Source of the DNA: a virus
Virus record (IMG/VR): IMGVR_UViG_3300020735_000007
Location: 36,877-100,876 of that record
Reading direction: 5' to 3' (one strand)
Length of the DNA stretch: 64,000 nt
Shown: positions 8,464 to 49,866 of the stretch, one piece after another
Layout of the letters: each line of letters opens with the position of its first letter
Position numbering within the stretch: position 1 is the first letter of the stretch
Position numbers and translations under genes: made by a program
Notes under the pieces: generated by a model
Told to the model about the DNA's origin: nothing
The model's input: the letters and a program-made list of their open reading frames with translations, nothing else
Databases searched by the model: none

Positions 8464-8581
8464 TGGTGCCCGAAGCGGGAGTCGAACCCGCAAACCATGG
8501 ATTTTGGGTGTGACTACCTCCATCCACCTACATTAGAGGAGTCGATAAGTCCATTGCATATGCCAATTCTGCTATTCGGGC
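8464..8581 (-). tRNA. tRNA with a 48-nt anticodon loop (intervening sequence?)
   Basis: The acceptor GCCCGAA pairs perfectly with TTCGGGC, followed by A and CCA. The D arm is GCA...TGC with GG, the anticodon stem ATGGA/TCCAT is perfect, the variable loop is 5 nt and the T arm is GCGGG-TTCGACT-CCCGC. The anticodon loop is 48 nt, about 41 nt too long, and contains its own stem GACT(A)CCTC-like pairing. The insert is far too short for a group I intron. Removing it could leave more than one anticodon, so identity is left open. Confidence 0.6.
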
Positions 8582-9429: not shown

Positions 9430-9655
9430 CCAGCTTTTTAGCAGGAAGCTGGAAACTGTTCACCATTAACGTGTTCCAACCCCTTCATTATAACAGTCTA
9501 GTAAGACTTGGGGTGGTATCTTGGTAGAAATGGAGCTGCTGAGAATCGGATATACCGATTGGGAGAATGCACAATGCCTTTTATCATGTTTTCACAGCAT
9601 TCATCCCACTGAGGCGATGCAGATACAAATCCTTCAGGATTCAACAACTCAGCGA
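9430..9655. other. Hairpin-rich intergenic stretch between two tRNAs
   Basis: This 226-bp gap has no ORF but several perfect short stems: CCAGCTT (9430-9436) with AAGCTGG (9446-9452), AGTCT/AGACT (9495-9508), AATCGG/CCGATT (9544-9560) and AATCC/GGATT (9628-9641). It may be processed tRNA spacer or a further structured RNA. No cloverleaf was found. Confidence 0.3.
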
Positions 9656-9661
9656 CATTGA

Positions 9662-9735
9662 TGGTTAGGGCGACAGGACTTGAACCTGTAAGGGAACCTT
9701 CAAAGGGTTCTGGTTTACCATTAGCCTACACCCCA
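9662..9735 (-). tRNA. tRNA-Gln (anticodon TTG)
   Basis: Acceptor TGGGGTG pairs with CGCCCTA (the T1-A72 pair is characteristic of tRNA-Gln), the anticodon arm GAACC-CTTTGAA-GGTTC is perfect and gives TTG, and T arm ACAGG-TTCAAGT-CCTGT and CCA are present. Confidence 0.93.
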
Positions 9736-9741
9736 CTTGTG

Positions 9742-9879
9742 TTACTTCCTGCTAGCCCCCCTTCTCTGCAACTCAAAACGAGCCGCAGCGTGAAGAAGAG
9801 AGCCACTACTGATGACCGACTGCAACTGCTCATCGGACATCTTTTGCACAGACTTGCTGTGCTTTGCTGATTGGGCCAT
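9742..9879 (-). CDS. Small hypothetical protein, 45 aa, structure-controlled
   Basis: The product begins MAQSAKHSKSVQKMSDEQLQ and ends in a basic helix (LQRRGASRK). The middle, MSDEQL...SGSLLHAAARFEL, looks like one or two amphipathic helices. The SD GGAGGT is ideal but is buried in the 3' arm of a near-perfect hairpin (9885-9910). A five-codon leader ORF ends just before that hairpin. It lies between tRNA-Gln and the large RNA candidate. The family is not recognised. Confidence 0.65.
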   Translation of the reverse strand: MAQSAKHSKSVQKMSDEQLQSVISSGSLLHAAARFELQRRGASRK

Positions 9880-9884
9880 AAGGC

Positions 9885-9910
9885 ACCTCCAAACGTTAAG
9901 CGTTGGAGGT
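9885..9910 (-). promoter_or_regulatory. SD-sequestering hairpin
   Basis: The segment 9901-9910 pairs with 9885-9895 (ten pairs with one bulged base) around a 5-nt loop. The 3' arm on the minus strand contains the GGAGGT SD for the 45-aa gene starting at 9879. Confidence 0.5.
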
Positions 9911-9913
9911 TAT

Positions 9914-9931
9914 TCAGGTGAAACGACTCAT
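9914..9931 (-). other. Possible leader peptide ORF (MSRFT)
   Basis: ATG at 9931 follows ATAGGAGCAATAC, and the ORF ends with TGA at 9914-9916, four bases before the hairpin that hides the next SD. Ribosomes finishing here could affect folding of the hairpin. That this is a real leader peptide is an inference. Confidence 0.35.
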
Positions 9932-9984
9932 GTATTGCTCCTATGTGTGTTAATACCCAATTTTTAGAAAAATAAACGTAGCGG

Positions 9985-10570
9985 AAAGATTTGTCTTGGG
10001 TTTCTCTGTTATGGGCTTCATGTAATCACGGTCCCCCATTTTCTCCGTCCCAAGTATCCGTTACGATTACCCATTCAACTTCTTTGCATCAATCAGCTTG
10101 GTTCTGGATTGTTAGTTCCCTATCGTTTCAGGAACAAGTAGCCGTTTTCTCCAGCTTACCGTGAATGGGACCAGTAAGAAACGTGTTAGTCGGATGGTGA
10201 GTTCTCGTTTGAGTCTTGTTGACCTCTCCCCCACTGTCATTTTGCTCATTTCAGCCTCTCAACTGAAACATCCGACCTTAGATTTTTTTGGGTGGTTGCC
10301 GATCTATCAACTTCCTTTCTCATCGCCAGCCCTTACGAGTTATGGCACCCTGATTTACATCCCTGGTCTTCATGCCTGTCCAGGGTGAGTCTTGGATTTT
10401 GCAGCGTAGTTCCTGTGACCGGGAGCTTACAACGTGCCTCCCTCAGTGTAGCACCAAGATACTTTTTGGAGTTTTACGAGTTGCTCCAGGTGGCTTTGCG
10501 AAGGCTCCTGACTAGCTAGCGGCTAGGTCGCAAACCTGCTCATTTGCTATCGCGCTAGTTCTCGTCCAGT
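9985..10570 (-). ncRNA. Large structured non-coding RNA candidate (GOLLD/ROOL-like context)
   Basis: No convincing ORF covers this stretch on either strand. Many complementary segments are visible: GTAATC/GATTAC (10022-10027 with 10065-10070), GTTCC/GGAAC (10115-10119 with 10131-10135), an 8-bp stem 10189-10196 with 10269-10276 enclosing TTTCAG/CTGAAA, CACCCTG/CAGGGTG (10346-10352 with 10381-10387), GGGAG/CTCCC (10421-10442) and TTTGCGA/TCGCAAA (10495-10501 with 10528-10534). Size, location between tRNAs, and phage setting resemble the large ornate RNAs GOLLD and ROOL. I could not match a consensus by eye. Strand is inferred from flanking tRNAs. Confidence 0.5.
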
Positions 10571-10643
10571 TTCACAAAAGCAAGCCATTGACCTTTACAA
10601 CATGGCGTTATTCCCGACAAAAGGGAGGTCTGTTGTTTCTCCT

Positions 10644-11216
10644 TCACTTTTTGCTTTTGTGCTGCTGTGTACTGGAAAATGCTGCTGGGTCACTATCTCT
10701 AGCAACGATCTCTTCAAGAACTTTCTGAACTCTAATCATTTTAAGATTCTTTTGTTTATTATTTTCATGCCTACCTCTCCAAGTTGGAGTTTGACTATGG
10801 CAGTTTGGGCACAGACCCTCAAGATTTTCTCTTGAATCATCATTGTTGTTCCCATTTTTATGATCTACTTCTAGAGTAATTGGAAGGCCAAACCAAGAAT
10901 CAATCTTACATCTATTACATTTCAACTCTTGTTCAACAATAACTCTGGCTCTTTTAGAATCCCAAGCCAAGTCTTCAAACTTTTTGGAAAACAGGTAATC
11001 AAATCTGGTGGTTCTCTTTTCTCTCATTTTATCTAGTTTATCTTTTAGTCTTACAAGTTCCTCTTCAGTTAAAGAAGCATGAAACTCTTTATTTTTTAAT
11101 GATTTGAGTTTTTTACTCTCTTCACTAAAATTTTGAGAATTTCTACATTTTAAGCTACAGAAGCTCTTTAGCCCTTTTCCTGGAGTGAACTCTGCCCCAC
11201 ATTTTTTACATTGCAT
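10644..11216 (-). CDS. HNH homing endonuclease
   Basis: The 190-residue protein opens with a zinc finger CKKCGAEF...FCSLKC (3-24), then a charged helical linker, and ends with the HNH core at about 105-150: CNRCKIDSWFG, LEVDHKNGNN, NLEGLCPNCHSQT. The His-Asn-His residues and the CxxC pairs are intact, so it is probably active. SD GAGGT precedes the start. It lies between a tRNA-like gene and the large RNA candidate, which suggests invasion of the RNA island. Confidence 0.9.
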   Translation of the reverse strand: MQCKKCGAEFTPGKGLKSFCSLKCRNSQNFSEESKKLKSLKNKEFHASLTEEELVRLKDKLDKMREKRTTRFDYLFSKKFEDLAWDSKRARVIVEQELKCNRCKIDSWFGLPITLEVDHKNGNNNDDSRENLEGLCPNCHSQTPTWRGRHENNKQKNLKMIRVQKVLEEIVARDSDPAAFSSTQQHKSKK

Positions 11217-11268: not shown

Positions 11269-11371
11269 TGGTACGCCCACCTGGATTTGAACCAAGACAC
11301 TCCGCACATCTAGCGGCTACCTTTCGGTGGTTGGGTATAGGCCAACTGTTCTACCATTAAACTATAGGCGC
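11269..11371 (-). tRNA. tRNA-Ile-like (anticodon TAT) with a 33-nt variable region
   Basis: Acceptor GCGCCTA/TGGGCGT, D stem GTTT/GAAC with GG in the loop, anticodon arm GTTGG-CCTATAC-CCAAC, T arm CTTGG-TTCAAAT-CCAGG, discriminator A and CCA are all present. The anticodon would be TAT, but position 33 is C instead of U. The variable region is 33 nt with ACC-GAAA-GGT and CCGC/GCGG hairpins, unlike tRNA-Ile. It is either an unusual tRNA or a degraded one. Confidence 0.6.
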
Positions 11372-11377
11372 ATTGAA

Positions 11378-11467
11378 TGGTCCTCCCCACGGGAGTTGAA
11401 CCCGCTATTCCTTACGGAAGGTGACTTAAAAGGCCACTGCCATCACCGTGTGGCAAAGGGAGGGAGG
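11378..11467 (-). tRNA. tRNA-like gene, class II shape with TTT anticodon
   Basis: Acceptor CCTCCCT pairs with GGGGAGG (one wobble), anticodon arm GTGGC-CTTTTAA-GTCAC gives TTT (Lys), a 15-nt variable arm folds as TTCC-GTAA-GGAA, and T arm GCGGG-TTCAACT-CCCGT and CCA are present. The acceptor-to-D linker is about five nt instead of two. A long variable arm is not expected in tRNA-Lys, so identity is uncertain. Confidence 0.55.
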
Positions 11468-11559: not shown

Positions 11560-11745
11560 TTAAAAATTCACCGTCATGTGCTGATATCCACTAGCTCCAC
11601 TTATGCACCTACTTCAACCGGGAAGGTCGAGCAGTCTGGAGTTACGGTTGGGTGGACTAATTAGTGAATGCTAGAGAACGCGACTCTCTTTAGCTAGACG
11701 CAAAACATCAGCGATTTAGGTGCGAATTAGCGCACCAAGCAAAAT
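11560..11745 (-). ncRNA. Structured RNA candidate with a possible pseudoknot
   Basis: TCCAC (11587-11591) pairs with GTGGA (11652-11656), CTCCA (11595-11599) with TGGAG (11637-11641), and CAACC (11615-11619) with GGTTG (11646-11650), the last two crossing as a pseudoknot. GGTGCG/CGCACC (11719-11736) forms a separate 6-bp hairpin. No ORF is present, and two promoters lie just upstream. Confidence 0.35.
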
Positions 11746-11774
11746 TTATTACACTTATCATATAATGTTGTCAA
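11746..11774 (-). promoter_or_regulatory. Possible promoter for the RNA island
   Basis: A perfect minus-strand TTGACA (11769-11774) is followed after 17 bp by TAATAA (11746-11751). The -10 is a weak match. Confidence 0.35.
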
Positions 11775-23710: not shown

Positions 23711-24622
23711 TTAGGCAACGGAGGGGTTGAAGACCTGAACACCAGAGGGGTTGAAGACCAAGAATCCGGCGATTTCAAAGATTGAGAATCCAATCTGGCG
23801 AAGGTCGGGGCGGTCAGCAGAGAGAACGGTAAGAGGCACACGTTCAGGAATAACACCAAGGAACTCGGCGTCAGCTAGAATGTAGACATTTCCGTAAGTA
23901 ACCTTTCTGGATTGGAGAATGGTGGCTCCCCAAAGGTAACCCATGATACCAGTCTTGAGTAAGTGGCGCTGAGTTTCACGATCAACGGTAGTATCAGTCC
24001 ACTTAAGGATATCTGTATAGTTACGAGGATTCATGAAAAGGTAGGCAACACTTAGATCGTGACGCTGAACCTGACCGAAACAATCAGCTAGATCGTTAAC
24101 ATCAACACCAGCACCAGAGGCTCCAGCGAGAGTAACGTTATAGACAGGATCATCGGGGGATTTACCAGTGGCAGCGGTGGCAATATTGTCAAAGAGGGAG
24201 AAGATGTAAGCATCTTCAGTGGCTCCAATTTCAGCCTTGGCTAGATTGAGGGCGCGAGAAACGATATCGAATCTGCGTTCCTTGATCTGAGTGATAGGAA
24301 TCATTGGGTTAGCGGTGATTTCAAAGGTAGGAACGGTAACACGAAGAGGATTAACCAACTTCACGATATCGCCGCCCTGTTCACCAACTACGAAGGCTTC
24401 CACGAAGGAGCGTCCGGTTTCGTCAAATTCCTTGTCGTAGATGGGTAGAGCGCCATCGGGAAGGGTTTCGACCATGAGTGCTTTACGAGCGATACTCATG
24501 TAATCGCGTCTACGGCGAAGGCTGGGGCCTAGAGCAGTAGCTAGTTTCTGGCGACCAGCAGCGGTCTTAAGGATCTGACCTAACTGAGCGGTCTGAGCTT
24601 GGGTGCGGGATAGATTAGCCAT
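23711..24622 (-). CDS. Major capsid protein (HK97 fold)
   Basis: The 303-residue protein has the layout of an HK97-fold coat protein: a charged N-terminal helix (RRRRDYMSIARKAL), a beta-rich centre (LRVTVPTFEITANP), a long spine helix region (RALNLAKAEIGATEDAYIF), and a C-terminal P and A domain (MGYLWGATILQSRKVTYGNVYILADAEFLGVIPERVPL). It follows the decoration-like gene, has SD AGAGGAGATA and is followed by a strong terminator, as expected of the most abundant virion protein. The order protease, scaffold, decoration, capsid supports this call. Confidence 0.85.
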   Translation of the reverse strand: MANLSRTQAQTAQLGQILKTAAGRQKLATALGPSLRRRRDYMSIARKALMVETLPDGALPIYDKEFDETGRSFVEAFVVGEQGGDIVKLVNPLRVTVPTFEITANPMIPITQIKERRFDIVSRALNLAKAEIGATEDAYIFSLFDNIATAATGKSPDDPVYNVTLAGASGAGVDVNDLADCFGQVQRHDLSVAYLFMNPRNYTDILKWTDTTVDRETQRHLLKTGIMGYLWGATILQSRKVTYGNVYILADAEFLGVIPERVPLTVLSADRPDLRQIGFSIFEIAGFLVFNPSGVQVFNPSVA

Positions 24623-38904: not shown

Positions 38905-41900
38905 TCATCTTCTTCTAAAAGGATTAACAACGGAATTGAGATTTGATCTCTGTAATATACCAAGCTGTCTTTCATGTGATTTTAGTTCCGCCATAGAACT
39001 AATATTAGGATCAAACCCCAAAGACATAAGACCATGATTTCGGGCCAGTCTAGCAGGGTCTATGCCACTTAAGATATCTGCAAATTCTCTAGCCCCTTCG
39101 TTCATAGCCCATTGTTGAGCAACCCAGGAAGCAAGAGCCACAGCATCGGCCTGATCATCATGAGCATCTTTTTCTGCTGGGGCCTGAACTTTTATTTGAT
39201 ATTTTCCAACATAATGAGCTTCTACCAATTTCATTTCATCAATAAACTTCTTCTCTGCTGGAAATGATGCTTTTTTCTGTTCCATCAATCCTTTAAGGGT
39301 TAAATACATCTGAGAATTTATACCGGAAGTTAAATGAACTAATTCTAACCCATTGATTCCATATTTCTCCAATAATTGAACGAGCATAGAACCACCATGT
39401 TGATCAGTTGCCCCTTTAAAACAAGGTAGGAGTCCGTTCATGCGTTTTAACCATAGTAAGATATCGTCCAATGGTAATTGTTTAACATTTGAATACTCTT
39501 CTTCTCCTACTATTTTTCTATCTATAAAATCATATACTAAAGTAGCTCCAGGAATCAAATCGAAAGTAGGTTGCCAATGACAAACAGCTAAAGCAGTTCC
39601 GTCATATTGCATACCTAAATCCAACCCCCAAAAATATTTTACTCCTATAGTTTCCGGAGTAAACTGACAGAAATTTTTTCTTTCTTGATCAATACAGGAT
39701 TCAAACACAGATAGTTTGACATAAGATTCCGCCGCTTCTAGGAATTCTCCACCATATTCAGCCTTGAACACATCGGGATTCTCTCTATGTTCTTTTTTTA
39801 AGAAATCTACATCAGAACGAGGATTCATCTCTGCCGTAGAGCATCGAAAAGCTAGAATGTCAGAATCATTCCCCATTTTCATAGCGGAACTGTAAAGTTC
39901 ATAGTACTTACCTATCTTACCGTTAGGAGAAGTAATAATGAGAATCATGGATTCTCGTTTCCCCCCTCTAGTCCCTCCAGCCTTAAACTGCATGGTGGCG
40001 GGGGCAGCGGCTTTATAAATGGCTTCAGAGTTAACTCCAATTTGATTTCTATAGAAAGCGAACTCGTCTAATGCCAATAAGAATGAACTAGGGCCACGAA
40101 CTTTGTTAGTGGTGCAATTGTGAACCACTGCAAATTTAGTTAAGAAAGAATGGGTATCCTCTACTTCAATATCAACAACAGGATGTTTATTTTCAATAGG
40201 AGTGATAGCCGTTATCTTTGACCAATAGTAGTTTACTCCCTTAACTTTTTGAAAAAATCTACAATGGTTATCTTGTTTACAAATTTCTACATACCAGGAA
40301 TCCTTATGAATTACTTCTTTTTGTTTATATTTAGTTATATAGCCTGGGCGAAACAGAATTGACGGTCGTTGTCCAGTCTGAATTAATAAATTGAAGAGAG
40401 AATAAGCTAGTTTTTTTGATACTGTTGGAGCAATTCTCCTATTATCACACCCATCTCCTTCATAATACCCTTGGATCAACGCTTTTTGTAATTCGATGGG
40501 CCAATAGAGAGCTTCATTGGGAACAACTTTATTTTCGCATCCTTCTCCAAACCAGAAGGCCAGCCCTCTTGCTAATTCTGATGAGGAGCAGAATACATCA
40601 CATCTATTACACTCAGGAGTTAAGATTAACGTGCTGTTCAGTCCAAATTCCGTTTGAAGAGTTTGTTGAATAAACGCAGCATAAGTGGTTTGCTCATTTA
40701 TATGGAAGGTCCACTTAACTGAATTTTTAAATTTTCCTACTTTCCCCATAGTTGAGCCTTCAGCTATGTATAACCCATATAATCGGCATGAATCAACTGT
40801 CACAGGTAGTTCAACAGAGCTACATCTAACTGAAGTATGTTCACAAAGCTTCCCTCCTAAATGTTTTTGAAAATAGGCTGGTGACTTTGCTTGAGTATTG
40901 TCAAGTGAAGAGGCCACTCTTTGATTCAAAGAAATTTGGGGATATAGAAAATAGTCCCCCTCAGCTAATTTGCTGGCATAATCCTCTGTTAGTGTGATAT
41001 CTATACCCTTAGTATCATCTCGTTTGCTATTATTCAAGCAATCTTTAAGCCCTTTTCCAGCGAGATTCCATTTGTATAAATATGGAAGTTTTTCAAAAGC
41101 CTCTTTGTTAGATACTGAAATACAAGTGTGTTGAGGGGTTAAAAGAAGGGGGTCACCCTTAAAATTACGAGTAGAAACTGCCAATAGGCTTTCTTCATTG
41201 TAAGTTTTGTTCAAAACTTTTTTCAAATTTCCATTCATGTCCCACACTAAATCCCCTATTTGTGTGTCCTTAATTGGGGTTAGTCCTTTAGAAGTCCATA
41301 TTAATTCATTCTCTTCTAAACAAGGCAAGCTGGCAACGGTAATTGAAGGAGTGATATCTCTTTTATATCGGTCAGCATCAGAAACGAAAGTCATTTCCTC
41401 TGTGGTCATATTTTTTAAATAGGGAGCAAAGAAAGGGGCACGGTTAACGTCTTCCTTCATTTTATCAAATAAACGAGAGGAGCCTTCTGTGTCCTGGGCC
41501 ATAAAAGTAAAATCTATGGGAGATCCAGGAATCAAACCATAATGGTCCTGAGGGGAACGAATATTCAAAAGACGATAAAGCTTATAGGATGCAATTGCCG
41601 AAACTAGGGCGCTATTATGTGTTACATTGAAATTATCTCCGAATAGAAACAAGCCATCTGGGCTATCAACGGTTATACATCGAACTTCTTGCTCTTTTTC
41701 TGGCTCTACAGATACGATGAACCTTCTGTTTTGACAAGGTTTTGAAGTAGTCTGAAGTTCAGCCAATTTTCTTGTTAATCTAAATACCGGCTTAGTAGAA
41801 GTCCAGGTAACTCTGTAACATGTTCCACAATCTTTTCCGTAATAAGTTGCTCTTTTTTCATTCCAATAAGGCTTAAGACCAAGAGAGGCGGCTAAATAGA

Positions 41901-43095
41901 AAACGCCCCTTGCTATATTTTCATTAGTATTATTAAACTCACATCGACTTCTATGGCACCCCCCATCTGTGTCCATCAATCCTTGGAGTAAGGCTAATCG
42001 CTGATCAATGGAGGATATCAAGTAAATTTCTGGAATGTGTTTATTCTTTAAGATTCCCATTTCTCTGAATTTAGACAGAAGGATATTTCTATCAGGGCTG
42101 TTTCCCCATTCTCCTTTTTTAGAGCCGTGCTGTTTAGAAGTTAAAGAGTATTCAGAGGCTTTAGAACCATTAGAGTTAATTGTAACCTCTAATCCATATG
42201 ATTCAGCTATTTTATAAATGTAGTTCTTAATCTCTTCATCCATAGTAGTTATGGATACATTGGCACTATGTCCATCCCCAAGCCAAAGTCCCAAAAAATA
42301 AGGATCTAATGGGAGTAGCTGGGAGTTGAACTCAACTGGGTTAGAAAGTGCTATAGAGTGATTTGTTTCTTGTTTTCCATCAGACCTTGAATAAAATAAA
42401 GAGTCTTTTATCTCTAAAGTAGTTTTAACGGATCCTATAGAGTCCTCTTTGCACATAGAGGGCCTTGGACCATTTTTGGGCCATCTTCTAGCGTTATTCT
42501 TTCTTTCAGTACGAGTCATAGTATGCCATAAGTGGCCCCCATGGCATACTACGGAAGTTTTATCATCAAAAGTTACTCGGTAAGTTTTATCCACAAAAGG
42601 TTGATGTGCTTGTATCACCTTTATAGCTTTACCACTTGGACTGAAAACAGAATCTCCTTCTTTCAAATCTTCAATATTTTTAAATCCATGAGGCGTAGGA
42701 ATAGGTGTCCTGAAGGCGAGAGCTTTTCCCCCTCTTCTCCCAACAATAGCAACAGTTTCATTATAACCGTCAGGGGAGGCATCTTGCCAAGAGGTTAAAT
42801 TTATACGTCCTTGATCATGGACATATTTAATATATTCTGTTTCTTTCAAATTATATAGTAGTTCATCACAAAAAATGTCATATACTGGAACAAGCTTCTC
42901 GTCTTTATCCATAGGAATGCCAAATATCAGTTTTATAAGCACTCTTTGTACTGGATATAATTGAATACCAAGCCCCTGTGGAGATTCAATAAACTCCAAG
43001 GCGTCCATTATATTAGTAGAGTCTGTAATGTGGTCCTGAATTAAACCACTAAATAAAGACTCCCTAGCGTCTTTACTAAACTTCTTTTTTGGCAT
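38905..43095 (-). CDS. Terminase large subunit (TerL) with two inteins
   Basis: This 1396-residue precursor packages DNA into proheads. Extein parts are residues 1-124, 495-591 and 994-1396. Walker A is split: GRRGGK (119-124) joins to SALVS after the first intein. Walker B LLALDEFAF lies about 15 residues after the second intein, and the C-terminal nuclease has GLDLG, ATDQHGG and HDDQADAVALA. The mature protein would be about 624 residues, normal for TerL. Its start overlaps the portal stop as TAATG with SD GGGAAGGG. ATPase and nuclease residues appear intact after splicing. Confidence 0.92.
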   Translation of the reverse strand: MPKKKFSKDARESLFSGLIQDHITDSTNIMDALEFIESPQGLGIQLYPVQRVLIKLIFGIPMDKDEKLVPVYDIFCDELLYNLKETEYIKYVHDQGRINLTSWQDASPDGYNETVAIVGRRGGKALAFRTPIPTPHGFKNIEDLKEGDSVFSPSGKAIKVIQAHQPFVDKTYRVTFDDKTSVVCHGGHLWHTMTRTERKNNARRWPKNGPRPSMCKEDSIGSVKTTLEIKDSLFYSRSDGKQETNHSIALSNPVEFNSQLLPLDPYFLGLWLGDGHSANVSITTMDEEIKNYIYKIAESYGLEVTINSNGSKASEYSLTSKQHGSKKGEWGNSPDRNILLSKFREMGILKNKHIPEIYLISSIDQRLALLQGLMDTDGGCHRSRCEFNNTNENIARGVFYLAASLGLKPYWNEKRATYYGKDCGTCYRVTWTSTKPVFRLTRKLAELQTTSKPCQNRRFIVSVEPEKEQEVRCITVDSPDGLFLFGDNFNVTHNSALVSAIASYKLYRLLNIRSPQDHYGLIPGSPIDFTFMAQDTEGSSRLFDKMKEDVNRAPFFAPYLKNMTTEEMTFVSDADRYKRDITPSITVASLPCLEENELIWTSKGLTPIKDTQIGDLVWDMNGNLKKVLNKTYNEESLLAVSTRNFKGDPLLLTPQHTCISVSNKEAFEKLPYLYKWNLAGKGLKDCLNNSKRDDTKGIDITLTEDYASKLAEGDYFLYPQISLNQRVASSLDNTQAKSPAYFQKHLGGKLCEHTSVRCSSVELPVTVDSCRLYGLYIAEGSTMGKVGKFKNSVKWTFHINEQTTYAAFIQQTLQTEFGLNSTLILTPECNRCDVFCSSSELARGLAFWFGEGCENKVVPNEALYWPIELQKALIQGYYEGDGCDNRRIAPTVSKKLAYSLFNLLIQTGQRPSILFRPGYITKYKQKEVIHKDSWYVEICKQDNHCRFFQKVKGVNYYWSKITAITPIENKHPVVDIEVEDTHSFLTKFAVVHNCTTNKVRGPSSFLLALDEFAFYRNQIGVNSEAIYKAAAPATMQFKAGGTRGGKRESMILIITSPNGKIGKYYELYSSAMKMGNDSDILAFRCSTAEMNPRSDVDFLKKEHRENPDVFKAEYGGEFLEAAESYVKLSVFESCIDQERKNFCQFTPETIGVKYFWGLDLGMQYDGTALAVCHWQPTFDLIPGATLVYDFIDRKIVGEEEYSNVKQLPLDDILLWLKRMNGLLPCFKGATDQHGGSMLVQLLEKYGINGLELVHLTSGINSQMYLTLKGLMEQKKASFPAEKKFIDEMKLVEAHYVGKYQIKVQAPAEKDAHDDQADAVALASWVAQQWAMNEGAREFADILSGIDPARLARNHGLMSLGFDPNISSMAELKSHERQLGILQRSNLNSVVNPFRRR
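40117..41322 (-). other. TerL intein 2 (402 aa, with LAGLIDADG endonuclease)
   Basis: Residues 592-993 begin CLEENELIWTSKGL and end FAVVHN before a Cys+1 (CTTNKVRG). Block B is LLTPQHTCIS. Two dodecapeptide motifs, LYGLYIAEG and LIQGYYEGDG, mark a LAGLIDADG endonuclease. Insertion is immediately upstream of the Walker B strand, between ASLP and CTT. Confidence 0.9.
41614..42723 (-). other. TerL intein 1 (370 aa, Ala1 type, with LAGLIDADG endonuclease)
   Basis: Residues 125-494 begin ALAFRTPIPTPHGFKNIEDL and end FNVTHN before Ser+1. Starting with Ala means the N-terminal nucleophile is missing and splicing uses a direct attack by the +1 residue (Ala1 class). Endonuclease motifs are YFLGLWLGDG and LLQGLMDTDG. 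Insertion splits the Walker A motif between GGK and S. Confidence 0.9.
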
Positions 43096-45370: not shown

Positions 45371-45784
45371 CTAGGAAGTCAATTTTTCTTTTTCAGCTTG
45401 AGAGAGAACGTTATTCCTTTTTTCATTTTCCATTTTCTTTATAAGTTTTTGATAATTCTTCTCAGCTTTTATAAGTTCTTTATCCTGTTCATTGAGATCC
45501 GAAATAGATTCACGTAATTGGGAAGAAGTTACTTGTTGAACCATAGCCGAGGCCATAGATAATTTCTGAAGGGTGAGTTTATCTTTTGCTATCTTTTCTA
45601 AAATTTCATTAGAGAAATCCATTTCGAGACAATCTGTATAGTGAGCATCAAGAAGAGAAAGTTTATGAAGAAATGCGGTAAGAATTCTTTGAGACTCCCC
45701 TAATAATTGAATTTTTTTAGTAGTGGCAGCTAATATTCTGCCTAAATGAACATGGTTCTTATCCCTAGAAATAATAACTGTCAT
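45371..45784 (-). CDS. Coiled-coil hypothetical protein
   Basis: The 137-residue product is almost entirely helical, with Leu heptads and a charged C-terminus (KKMENEKRNNVLSQAEKEKL). It lies between polymerase and portal and overlaps the polymerase stop by four bases (ATGA). The family is not recognised. A small terminase-like or assembly role is possible only by position. Confidence 0.55.
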   Translation of the reverse strand: MTVIISRDKNHVHLGRILAATTKKIQLLGESQRILTAFLHKLSLLDAHYTDCLEMDFSNEILEKIAKDKLTLQKLSMASAMVQQVTSSQLRESISDLNEQDKELIKAEKNYQKLIKKMENEKRNNVLSQAEKEKLTS

Positions 45785-48700
45785 TGAATATACTCCGGGG
45801 GAATTTTACTCACATTAGCAAGCTTCATGATAGTTCCTTGATAGTCAAAAACCACTGTAGCGGAGCCAATCCCTAGCTTCTCAATAAAAACAGAAAGTTC
45901 TCTTTCAGTAAGTGATTTAATTTTTGGAATTATGGCTGGAATCGGAGCTAAAATAGCTTTCTTGGGGGATTCATAAAATAAATCGTCCTCCCCTAAAGAC
46001 TCTTCTTCAGCTTTTTTTACCTCAACTTCAATTTTTACCTCTTTTTCTCTAAATTTCTCTTCAATTTTATTATCAATTTGATCATAGGTAGCCACGATTG
46101 ACCACTCAGGATTAGATGAAGGAGGTTCCACTTCTACATGGTCAGGATTTTCCATTGTAGGCTTGGGTTTAATAGCGATTTCCTTATGTTCAGGAAGTTC
46201 AAATCTGTTCCTGTCAGCATATTCCTTAACAGACTCTTCTAATGCTCCTGCTTCATCCTCATCGATCCTCCAGAATTCATCAAGCTGGAACATCGTAACA
46301 ATATGTCGCCTCATAAGCTCTTCGGTTTTAGCTTTCTCAATAGATGAGAGGATACTATGTGTCCTAGAGTGAGTGTTTACCTTCAACCAACCCGTAACTT
46401 TCTCAATTTTTTCGGCCAAAAGTGAAGAAACTAGCTTATTAACTAAATTCTCGTCAAAATCTTGAGGAATATAAGTTTGCATACCTGGTACATCGTACCA
46501 TCCAGAGGCTTCGTGGTCTTTATCACCAGTCAAATGGTAGTCAATATCCCAAGTTTGACCATACTCGCAATCAGTTTCAAGAGGAACTTTCCATTCTTTA
46601 GCTGTGTGTAACTGACGTAATTTCATAAAACGGTTCAAACGAGGAACGATGTAAGGAGCAAACTCATTCTTGACAGAGAAGTCAATTTCGTCATGCACTG
46701 TGCAATGAAGTTTAAAAACATCCTCTACACCTGGGGTATTTGTGGCCCAAATACGAATTTTATTCAAAGCAGAGCGCATTAAATCACCAGCGGTTCCTTG
46801 AAGTGGAATATTAATGGAGACACGCTCTGCCTTACCCAAGAAACGAGTATACTCTCCATAATTTTTAACGCCGGATTCAGGATTACTGTATAAAGCATTA
46901 GCGGCTCTTTCAGCGGCCAAAGCCTCATCTTTCATATCTTGTTTTTTGTAAACTTCCACAGAACGCTTCAATTCTCTATATTTATAATAGTACTCTTTGT
47001 GTTCCGGCTTAGGTATGGAAATTTTATAGTGCTTCATGGCCGAATGAAAACCAATAATTCGGCCTGTGGGAGTCTTACACATCAATTTAGTTCTAGCAGT
47101 ATTACGTTTACCTTCGCACCATGCGGCAAAGACCGGAACAGACTCCCAATATTTGTTGACTAGAGTTTGTGCCTCTTCAAAAGTGATTTCATGACCATCT
47201 TTTACCATATTTTCAAAGATAGTGTATGCGGTTCCACCATAAAGGAGGGCAAAGTTAATAATTTTAGATAACGATCTAAGTTGTTTTTTCCTACCTTTGC
47301 TTGTGTTAGGATCAGAAAATTCAGGAAACAAAGCTCTAGCAGTAAGAGAGTGGAAATCCCCTTCCCCGTTTAAAAATTCATCCAAAAATAGTGGTTCTCC
47401 TGAAACATTAGCTGCCACGCGCATTTCAACGTTGCAGTTGTGACTGAGCATTCCCTCAGCGATAAAAGTATGAGTTGAAGTCTGAAGTGCTATTACTTCT
47501 TGTTTTCCAACTGGGGTAATAGATAAAATAGTAGCGGCTACCCCGGTTTTACTTTGATATGTTTGTCCTTCCCAAATCTTTTTTGCATTTTTAATAATTC
47601 TTTCAGGACGAATTTTCCCTAAAAACTTAAAGGTTTCAATCCTTCCACCATTAAATCTTAAAGTATCTACTTTACAACTTTTTGGTCTGTCCCTTACAAC
47701 ATTATACCCCTTAGATAGAAGTAATGATTCTACTTTATCTAAGACCAAACCTGGATTTTGACCAAATCCCACTGTCTGACCACTAACCCAGCCTTCACCA
47801 TCAAATACACCACTAAGATAACCTGCCTCCCAAGACTTATCTTCTTCCCAGACATCACAAAAATAGGCTATCTTCATTCCACTTTTCAATTGATCCGCTT
47901 GTCTCCAATCATAAAGTCCGCGAAGTCTGTTTGATCTGGGGCCACCACCTCTCACTTTAGCTAACCAACTATGATCAATGGAGCATATCACAGTCCCTTT
48001 ATCTGTTTTTATCTCTAAACAATCTTTTACTACAATCTTTTTTTTCTCAATAACAGTAGTTCTAAGCCTTCTTCTCCCTTTTTTATTAAGTTCTTTTGGA
48101 GGAAGATATTCATCAAAACCAACTAGTTCATCACCTTCTTGCAAGTCTCTAATCGTAACCCATCGTAAATCAGGAGTTAAAAGACGAGTAGAGGGAGCTA
48201 AACAATAATCCGTTGTAAAATAAGTCCATCCTGGTTCAGCAATAAAAAGACCACGAAGATTGATAACTTCATTTACATCCACCTTTGTCTTATTACCCTG
48301 ACAAACATTACAGGAAGGAACTAGGCAATAACGCTTACCAAAGTAAGTTCCAAAGTGATTTCCTTCAATATTTGGAGCTTTATTACCATCTTTAAAGCAA
48401 GAAGGGTCTAAATCAATCTCATTAAACTGAGGTTCATCTCCGGTTACCTCTTGACTAGTCAAAAGTTTCCCTTTAACCCACCAATTCCCACCAACCTTCT
48501 TAATAGCCTGAGGATTAAGACCACAGCCACCGTCTTTTTCAAATTCACCACCAGCAGCGGCTAAACGACCACCAGCAACTACGTTTTGTTTAAAATAAAT
48601 ACGAGCGGTGTGGTCCCTTGGTTCATATTTCAAATTTTCAGGATGAAGGGCTGCATATTCTCTGAAAGCAAGCAACTTATCAAGGAATTCGTCTTCTGGA

Positions 48701-49866
48701 TACTGTTTTTTAAGCTCCGTAAGTACCCCGATGGCCGTAGAAGCCTCTTGAGTTTTCTCTGAAAATTCTACTGGGGTCATTCCTCTCTTATTAAAAAGAA
48801 CTTCACGAAGCTGGGGAGTAGACCCTGGATTAAAATTCTCAATTCCTGATAAAGCCGCTAATTCCTCAGTCAACTTATTCAGTTTACTCTTATGGAATGA
48901 GATGGTATCGTTAAGCCTCTCTACATCCACTGTGACACGCTGACGCTCAATCCAGGTCAAGGTATCCACTAACAAATGGTCAAGCCTGTGAACAGCCTTC
49001 ATAGCTCTGGCCTTGTCCTTTATGAGATACCACAAGAGCCAAGTGGTAATAGCATCACCAGCAGCATACCAAAGAGCAATATAGGTAGGAACCCAAGTAA
49101 AGGGGGCCAAAACGGTCTTTTGTGTGTTTTTTTGAAGCTCCTCATTCCAAACGGAAGCCTTCACTTTAGCAATTTGACTCAATTCAATCTGTTCAAAACC
49201 CAATCTAGCCTTAGTTAAAGCCTTCAAACCACCAATTTGAAGGCCACCAGACCCACTGGTATCAACCGAAGCCTTGGGGTCTTCAAGATAGTTCAAAATT
49301 TGAACATCTTCAAAGTAGGGAAAGTCCCTGAAAACAATGCCGAGAGTAATTCTTAAAACTTCTCTATCATATTTGGCGTTAAAAAAGATTAAATGGCTTT
49401 GATCAAACAGATTTTGAAGAATACGCCTCAAATCTTCTGCCGGAATATTATTTCCATCCTCATGATTGACCGAAATGTATAATCCTTCAATACCATCAGC
49501 CGATAGGCAAATACCAGCCAATTTAATATTAGCTTCATTATTAACAACTCTAGTATCTAGGCCATCAGTCTCAGTATCTACAGCTATTACAGGACAAGTA
49601 TGGTCTTCAAAAGAATGATGCCTAGAAGTATCTTCAAGAACCGCAATAGCCCAGGCTTCTAGTTCAGATGCTGTAGTAATTAGTCTAAAACTCTTCTGAG
49701 CCATCCATGGTTGCTTGATAGATTCCAAATCTAACACAGCAATATGTTCATTAAAGATAGTCCTCAGGTCCTTTTTAACCTTTGGAGTCTTTGTAACTTT
49801 TGGCTTTTTGGCTTTTTTGACTACTATTGACAAATTTTCTGAAACTACTTCTTCATCTTCTGACAC
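45781..49866 (-). CDS. DNA polymerase, family A, with an intein
   Basis: The 1361-residue precursor has a 3'-5' exonuclease (VIAVDTETDG at 93-102, FFNAKYDREV near 161-170, YAAGDAITTW near 267-276) and a polymerase domain. Motif A is split: TTDY (551-554) joins to CNVEMRVAA after the intein, so the catalytic Asp is present. Motif B RSLSKIINFALLYGG and motif C HCTVHDEIDF are intact. The intein is residues 555-810. The chain continues about 250 residues past YGQTWD, where family A polymerases normally end, adding an acidic, KIE-rich linker and a small C-terminal domain. It is the phage replicase. Confidence 0.92.
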   Translation of the reverse strand: MSEDEEVVSENLSIVVKKAKKPKVTKTPKVKKDLRTIFNEHIAVLDLESIKQPWMAQKSFRLITTASELEAWAIAVLEDTSRHHSFEDHTCPVIAVDTETDGLDTRVVNNEANIKLAGICLSADGIEGLYISVNHEDGNNIPAEDLRRILQNLFDQSHLIFFNAKYDREVLRITLGIVFRDFPYFEDVQILNYLEDPKASVDTSGSGGLQIGGLKALTKARLGFEQIELSQIAKVKASVWNEELQKNTQKTVLAPFTWVPTYIALWYAAGDAITTWLLWYLIKDKARAMKAVHRLDHLLVDTLTWIERQRVTVDVERLNDTISFHKSKLNKLTEELAALSGIENFNPGSTPQLREVLFNKRGMTPVEFSEKTQEASTAIGVLTELKKQYPEDEFLDKLLAFREYAALHPENLKYEPRDHTARIYFKQNVVAGGRLAAAGGEFEKDGGCGLNPQAIKKVGGNWWVKGKLLTSQEVTGDEPQFNEIDLDPSCFKDGNKAPNIEGNHFGTYFGKRYCLVPSCNVCQGNKTKVDVNEVINLRGLFIAEPGWTYFTTDYCLAPSTRLLTPDLRWVTIRDLQEGDELVGFDEYLPPKELNKKGRRRLRTTVIEKKKIVVKDCLEIKTDKGTVICSIDHSWLAKVRGGGPRSNRLRGLYDWRQADQLKSGMKIAYFCDVWEEDKSWEAGYLSGVFDGEGWVSGQTVGFGQNPGLVLDKVESLLLSKGYNVVRDRPKSCKVDTLRFNGGRIETFKFLGKIRPERIIKNAKKIWEGQTYQSKTGVAATILSITPVGKQEVIALQTSTHTFIAEGMLSHNCNVEMRVAANVSGEPLFLDEFLNGEGDFHSLTARALFPEFSDPNTSKGRKKQLRSLSKIINFALLYGGTAYTIFENMVKDGHEITFEEAQTLVNKYWESVPVFAAWCEGKRNTARTKLMCKTPTGRIIGFHSAMKHYKISIPKPEHKEYYYKYRELKRSVEVYKKQDMKDEALAAERAANALYSNPESGVKNYGEYTRFLGKAERVSINIPLQGTAGDLMRSALNKIRIWATNTPGVEDVFKLHCTVHDEIDFSVKNEFAPYIVPRLNRFMKLRQLHTAKEWKVPLETDCEYGQTWDIDYHLTGDKDHEASGWYDVPGMQTYIPQDFDENLVNKLVSSLLAEKIEKVTGWLKVNTHSRTHSILSSIEKAKTEELMRRHIVTMFQLDEFWRIDEDEAGALEESVKEYADRNRFELPEHKEIAIKPKPTMENPDHVEVEPPSSNPEWSIVATYDQIDNKIEEKFREKEVKIEVEVKKAEEESLGEDDLFYESPKKAILAPIPAIIPKIKSLTERELSVFIEKLGIGSATVVFDYQGTIMKLANVSKIPPEYIQ
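47437..48204 (-). other. DNA polymerase intein (256 aa)
   Basis: Residues 555-810 begin CLAPSTRLLTPDLRW and end EGMLSHN before Cys+1. Block B is VICSIDHSWLAK. A dodecapeptide, GYLSGVFDGEG, indicates a LAGLIDADG endonuclease remnant; I see only one such motif. The insertion sits in motif A, between the catalytic DY pair and the following Cys. Confidence 0.9.

Follow-up and report, generated by a model that had tools for sequence, protein, structure and literature searches.

The locus and its source phage

The stretch analyzed here, which we call the window, is 64,000 nucleotides long and comprises positions 36,877-100,876 of a 100,876-bp IMG/VR virus record. Another record, IMGVR_UViG_3300000553_000005 (139,816 bp), overlaps the same contig and is identical to it across the 20 kb compared. 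The major capsid protein (23711-24622, minus strand) recurs in many contigs, the largest of which has 463 kb. Its nearest cultured relative, at 70% identity, is in Tunturiibacter phage Tunturi_5 (308,711 bp), which has an acidobacterium as its host and carries 43 tRNA genes (PMC11924767), and the next, leaving aside one uncultured record, is in Bacillus phage G. Based on these capsid relatives, the window is part of a huge-phage genome, and the hosts may be Acidobacteriota. From the translations, two intein-like insertions are apparent in the terminase large subunit and one in the DNA polymerase (window 38905-43095 and 45781-49866, both minus strand).

The region of interest was initially annotated as about 590 nt without a protein gene (9985-10570), lying between tRNA genes and an HNH gene. 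We find no credible gene there, the longest ORFs being 75 aa, and the setting is as described, with all of its parts on the minus strand: tRNA genes at 9662-9735 and 11272-11463, and an HNH endonuclease gene (10644-11216; phrog_10822, E 1.4e-22) immediately upstream of the RNA described below. The downstream neighbor is a small ORF of 45 aa (9742-9879, minus strand) that is conserved in two related phage contigs, G013 and G051. Upstream of this ORF, within 9742-9940 (minus strand), are a very short leader ORF (MSRFT*) and a hairpin, CCTCC/GGAGG. The hairpin would mask its ribosome-binding site, an arrangement that looks like translational attenuation; in G013 the leader is different and the arrangement is alike.

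Stems in the window sequence

The initial annotation also listed perfect stems as signs of a large structured RNA. They are present, including an 8-bp stem (10189-10196/10269-10276) that encloses a 6-bp hairpin (10249-10254/10263-10268), but they are not beyond chance. Compared with dinucleotide shuffles (n=40), the region has 13 perfect stems of at least 6 bp within 120 nt versus 8.4 +/- 3.1, with 4 of the 40 shuffles reaching 13, and two 8-bp stems within 200 nt versus 0.85, a count reached by 11 of 40. The minimum free energy z-score is -0.40 on the plus strand and 0.04 on the minus strand. As all of these values are within the range of the shuffles, we discarded both the folding energy and these stems as support, and without homologues the window sequence would not have supported the finding. 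The structure that homologues do support consists of other, minus-strand stems of this region, at 10361-10459 and probably also at 10104-10154. A large structured RNA with the size and setting of GOLLD and ROOL thus stands on homologues and covariation and not on the stems first listed.

Homologues in the tRNA arrays of huge phages

Neither phages nor plasmids yielded a useful relative of the region by BLAST, and BLAST of the homologous RNAs against phages was equally unproductive. Because the capsid neighborhoods of the relatives contained no tRNAs, we located their arrays with a tRNA search, which placed the arrays of large capsid relatives elsewhere in the genome. Comparing these arrays, we found that G013 (313,597 bp) has several non-coding stretches in common with the window, from which we picked by eye the shared strings GCTACAC and CGCTGCAAA. 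In 2.3 Mb of partly redundant sequence, these two strings occur within 120 nt of each other at three distinct places, all of them tRNA arrays. Scanning 2.9 million viral contigs with gapped patterns yielded further tRNA-array contigs and three matches (L193, L198, L202) that we treated as chance, as these contigs have no tRNA genes and the matches lie in apparent coding sequence. The strict patterns are absent from GTDB, where our scans covered 84,980 species of bacteria and archaea, each represented by a single genome.

A CM search of 45 phage records gave nine clear matches (E<=2e-8), all of them seed copies or near-identical relatives; the G056 copy scored E 4e-4, and the remaining matches were at noise level. 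Most capsid relatives therefore lack the conserved core, which was also not found in Tunturi_5, the nearest cultured phage. All accepted copies are located in tRNA arrays of huge-phage contigs.

Domain I

The conserved core, domain I, occupies 99 nt of the window (10361-10459, minus strand; CM R1 70.2 bits, E 1.2e-16, the window being part of the seed). From 5' to 3' it consists of P1 (5-6 bp), GCUACA, P2, GAACUWCGCUGCAAARU, the returning arm of P1, a short linker, and P3. In the window, the 5' arm of P1, UCUUGG (10454-10459), pairs with CCAAGA (10390-10395). The two sides of the asymmetric internal loop are GCUACA (10447-10452), identical in all six copies, and the nearly invariant GAACUACGCUGCAAAAU (10396-10412). 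Between them stands the P2 hairpin (10413-10446), with a CUG/CAG base followed by GGGAG/CUCCC, whose length varies widely between copies. P3 (10361-10385) is CCCUGG/CCAGGG with the loop ACAGGCAUGAAGA in the window; among copies it has 6-9 bp and a loop of 10-13 nt in which AGGCAU is constant.

We count six sequence-distinct copies, the window and five others: G013A (L167 10363-10279, minus), G053A (L197 2930-3008, plus), G051/G052 (L194 8056-7946, minus), G013B (L167 4078-3938, minus), and G056 (L204 986-840, minus). G013B lies directly 5' of tmRNA and has close copies in G053, G054, and G055; G013 and G053 hold two divergent copies each. In one copy, P3 lies about 10 nt from a tmRNA.

Covariation of the stems

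Since unpaired letters led us to the copies, the stems provide an independent test. P1 occurs as UCUUGG/CCAAGA, GUCAGG/CCUGAC, UCUGGU/ACCAGA, GACUGA/UCAGUC, and GUCGG/CCGAC, with five of its six pairs changing on both sides. All seven aligned pairs of P3 change on both sides, its versions being CCCUGG/CCAGGG, GAACCAU/AUGGUUC, AGUCGU/AUGACU, CCUCCCGAU/AUUGGGAGG, GCUUGAC/GUCAAGC, and GCAAGGGAC/GUUCCUUGC, and the base pairs of P2 covary as well.

In the model seed (A4), 95.8% of cells pair versus 59.1% in shuffles, and 14 of 16 pairs show changes on both sides. This seed had been trimmed by hand in P2 and the linkers, so we repeated the counts on untrimmed genomic matches (A8), where 97.2% of cells are in standard pairs versus 61.4 +/- 3.7% in shuffles and 20-46% in slid controls, and where 14 of 16 pairs again change on both sides; the A8 alignment was fitted to the model, which somewhat favors it, and its G056 row is misplaced at P1. 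Across these six independent copies, 0 of 500 shuffles reach the observed value in any of five measures. Domain I is preserved across the copies by compensatory changes. We discarded a protein-coding explanation, because no single reading frame crosses the core uninterrupted in every copy. When the window sequence is folded without constraints, neither P1 nor P2 forms, and the stability does not exceed that of shuffles.

Domain II and the probable extent of the RNA

Downstream of domain I in the window is a 51-nt element, domain II (10104-10154, minus strand), in which an outer stem CUGGA/UCCAG and an inner stem GUUCC/GGAAC enclose a loop with the decamer UGAAACGAUA. Four of the six RNAs contain this decamer, at a distance of 100-370 nt from domain I; it has only two other occurrences in the collected sequence. 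Each copy forms a hairpin within an outer stem, and in three elements the length is exactly 51 nt. In the window and in G056, domain II follows domain I on its 3' side; in G051 and G013B it lies on the 5' side. This variable order suggests a core with movable ends.

The window RNA probably runs on the minus strand from 10643, next to the stop codon of the HNH gene, to about 9960, next to a promoter-like motif, and this extent is ORF-free. About 150 of its approximately 680 nt are backed by homologues, and about 530 nt have no detected homologue. G013A and G053A share both ends and align over about 660 nt, if one leaves out a block of about 256 nt that G053A lacks. The consensus fold of the two shows compensatory changes at five pairs in total, located in P2, in P3, and in a few further stems. 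The ORF-free stretches around domain I in relatives are 0.67-1.05 kb, including about 740 nt in G013B, from tRNA-Gln to tmRNA, and about 1,050 nt in G051, from tRNA-Lys to tRNA-Arg. Judging from the related copies, the complete RNA would be about 0.67-1.05 kb long and contain modular insertions.

The motif just 3' of the RNA, GGGTATTAAC (9949-9958, minus strand), is promoter-like by consensus match only and stands ahead of the small ORF and tRNA-Gln. Exact matches to GNGTATTAAC occur at window positions 2160, 5281, 9949, and 50676, all four on the minus strand, always on the coding strand, and mostly just upstream of start codons, making it a candidate phage promoter. We found no terminator or strong promoter framing the RNA.

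Comparison with known RNA families

The GOLLD model covers the conserved 3' region of that RNA. We scanned the window against all 4227 Rfam families, once with the gathering cutoff and once with E<=10, and found no credible match apart from tRNAs; two homologues scanned at E<=10, GOLLD and ROOL included, likewise gave none. The ROOL model had no match at E<=10 in 19 related phage records, a search run without a positive control. The model scans rule out membership in GOLLD or ROOL, which the initial annotation had raised, and its other proposal, that this could be a new class, is the one that survives both the scans and the covariation. Group I intron, group II intron, and known ribozyme models also had no match in the window or the two homologues.

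Both ROOL (RF03087; 574-position model) and GOLLD are set in phage tRNA islands (PMC12286853). The new RNA is like ROOL in size, phage origin, tRNA-island setting, and many stems (PMC12286853), and, taking its inferred size, it agrees with the description of ROOL as an RNA of about 0.6 kb in phages or prophages that is often near tRNA islands. It differs in having other conserved strings and no match to the ROOL model. Like GOLLD, it is large and modular, sits in phage tRNA arrays, and has a conserved domain with a variable part (PMC12286853). GOLLD is often >800 nt; the inferred lengths of the new RNA, 0.67-1.05 kb and often about 0.7 kb, fall on both sides of this value. Unlike GOLLD, the new RNA has two conserved domains in either order. 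OLE RNA is also a large ornate RNA, but it is not an RNA of phage tRNA arrays and its model had no match. tmRNA (RF00023) is found in these arrays too, in one case with its gene right after a copy of the new RNA, but it is a separate element, with no tmRNA model match over domain I. We found no description of the RNA in a search of open-access journal literature. On these comparisons, the RNA seems to represent a new and rare family among the large structured RNAs of phage tRNA islands and to belong to no known family.

Possible function

GOLLD and ROOL are suspected to serve as scaffolds, and ROOL forms an RNA-only nanocage. We think it reasonably likely that the new RNA is a structured RNA of about 0.7 kb, cut from tRNA-array transcripts, that works in trans while the phage infects its host and, by analogy with GOLLD and ROOL, serves as a scaffold. 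The minus strand at about 9960-10643 would be transcribed together with the phage tRNA array, tRNA-processing nucleases would cut the RNA out of the array transcripts, and the released RNA would act in trans as a stable fold, alone or with protein. We favor a trans-acting RNA because of the setting next to tmRNA and tRNAs, the size, the modularity, and the invariant asymmetric internal loop, and a scaffold-like RNA cut from array transcripts is to us the likeliest mode of action.

The main rival is that domain I is a short cis-acting element of about 80-150 nt within the precursors of tRNA arrays that guides processing or stability of adjacent tRNAs or tmRNA, with the rest an unconstrained spacer. 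We regard this as a less probable but serious alternative. It would account for the fact that between distant copies only domains I and II are detectably conserved, for the free length of P2, and for the copy directly 5' of tmRNA, but not for the roughly 660 nt with many predicted stems that G013A and G053A conserve; also, the position relative to tRNAs varies, and domain I of the window is several hundred nt from the next tRNA. It is improbable, in our view, that the RNA is an intron, a ribozyme, or another selfish element or remnant tied to homing endonucleases. The HNH gene abutting the RNA in the window, the two divergent copies in each of G013 and G053, and the other interrupted tRNA genes in the arrays of this phage group would fit such an origin; we consider it less likely because the models of group I introns, group II introns, and ribozymes all lack a match and the HNH adjacency is not conserved among copies, and the window copy has no flanking tRNA halves. 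Finally, an ordinary spacer or degenerating sequence with stems by chance would agree with the near-zero energy z-scores and unexceptional stem counts, but it is very improbable given the covariation over independent copies, which no shuffle reproduces, and given that a scan of millions of viral contigs matched almost only tRNA-array copies; it is contradicted for domain I and could still apply to the unconserved remainder of the window copy.

A bolder and rather doubtful possibility is that the RNA represents a further giant phage RNA class beside GOLLD and ROOL, of about 0.7-1 kb, modular, with two domains in either order around an invariant internal-loop core, which would be released from the array during huge-phage infection and assemble into an RNA-based particle or ribosome-associated scaffold. 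To our knowledge, GOLLD and ROOL have determined structures and no known function, and the large RNAs that phages encode near tRNA genes have been puzzling for a long time. An unrelated RNA with a strongly covarying core in their niche suggests that excision from tRNA-array transcripts may itself favor such RNAs. The core of 80-150 nt is a small, testable unit, and the either-order domains offer a natural comparison for asking what large phage RNAs do.

Other unusual elements in the arrays

The arrays also contain odd tRNA genes. One at 8467-8581 (minus strand), missed by ARAGORN and Rfam, carries an insert of about 41 nt in its anticodon loop, directly following the anticodon UAU. Similar inserts of 38-41 nt occur in G013 (L168:11451+, GUA) and G051 (L194:6156-, CAU), and those of the window and G013 have GGTGGAT and a stem in common; they could be a small class of tRNA intron. 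In the huge-phage contigs G056, G012, and G013 there are apparently permuted tRNA genes, with the 3' half before the 5' half: the T arm and acceptor strand come first, followed by a 5-9-nt linker and then the acceptor strand and D arm (L204 4523(-), 2408(-), and ~540(-); L164 6917(-); L169 4145(+)). The P2 loop of the G056 copy (L204 914-979, minus) holds a sequence like a tRNA 3' half, AGGGGTTCAACTCCCTTGGGCTAGCCA, with no convincing 5' half nearby.

Tunturi_5 encodes an RtcB RNA ligase (PP885688.1 243837-244904), which fits the interrupted tRNAs of this phage group. We looked for RtcB in 15 IMG/VR relatives and in Bacillus phage G and found it in none of them. We set aside a link to tRNA splicing, as the records that carry the RNA, mostly fragments, are without RtcB and odd tRNAs also occur in an RtcB-less phage.

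Two more non-coding elements are conserved between the window and G013. One (11668-11750, minus; L167 7672-7592, minus) contains a pair of hairpins whose changes match, located around TAAATCGCTGA and GTCGCG. The other (9540-9620, minus; L167 7465-7355, minus) has the stems GAATGC/GCATTC versus GCTTGC/GCAAGC and a GGCATT loop.
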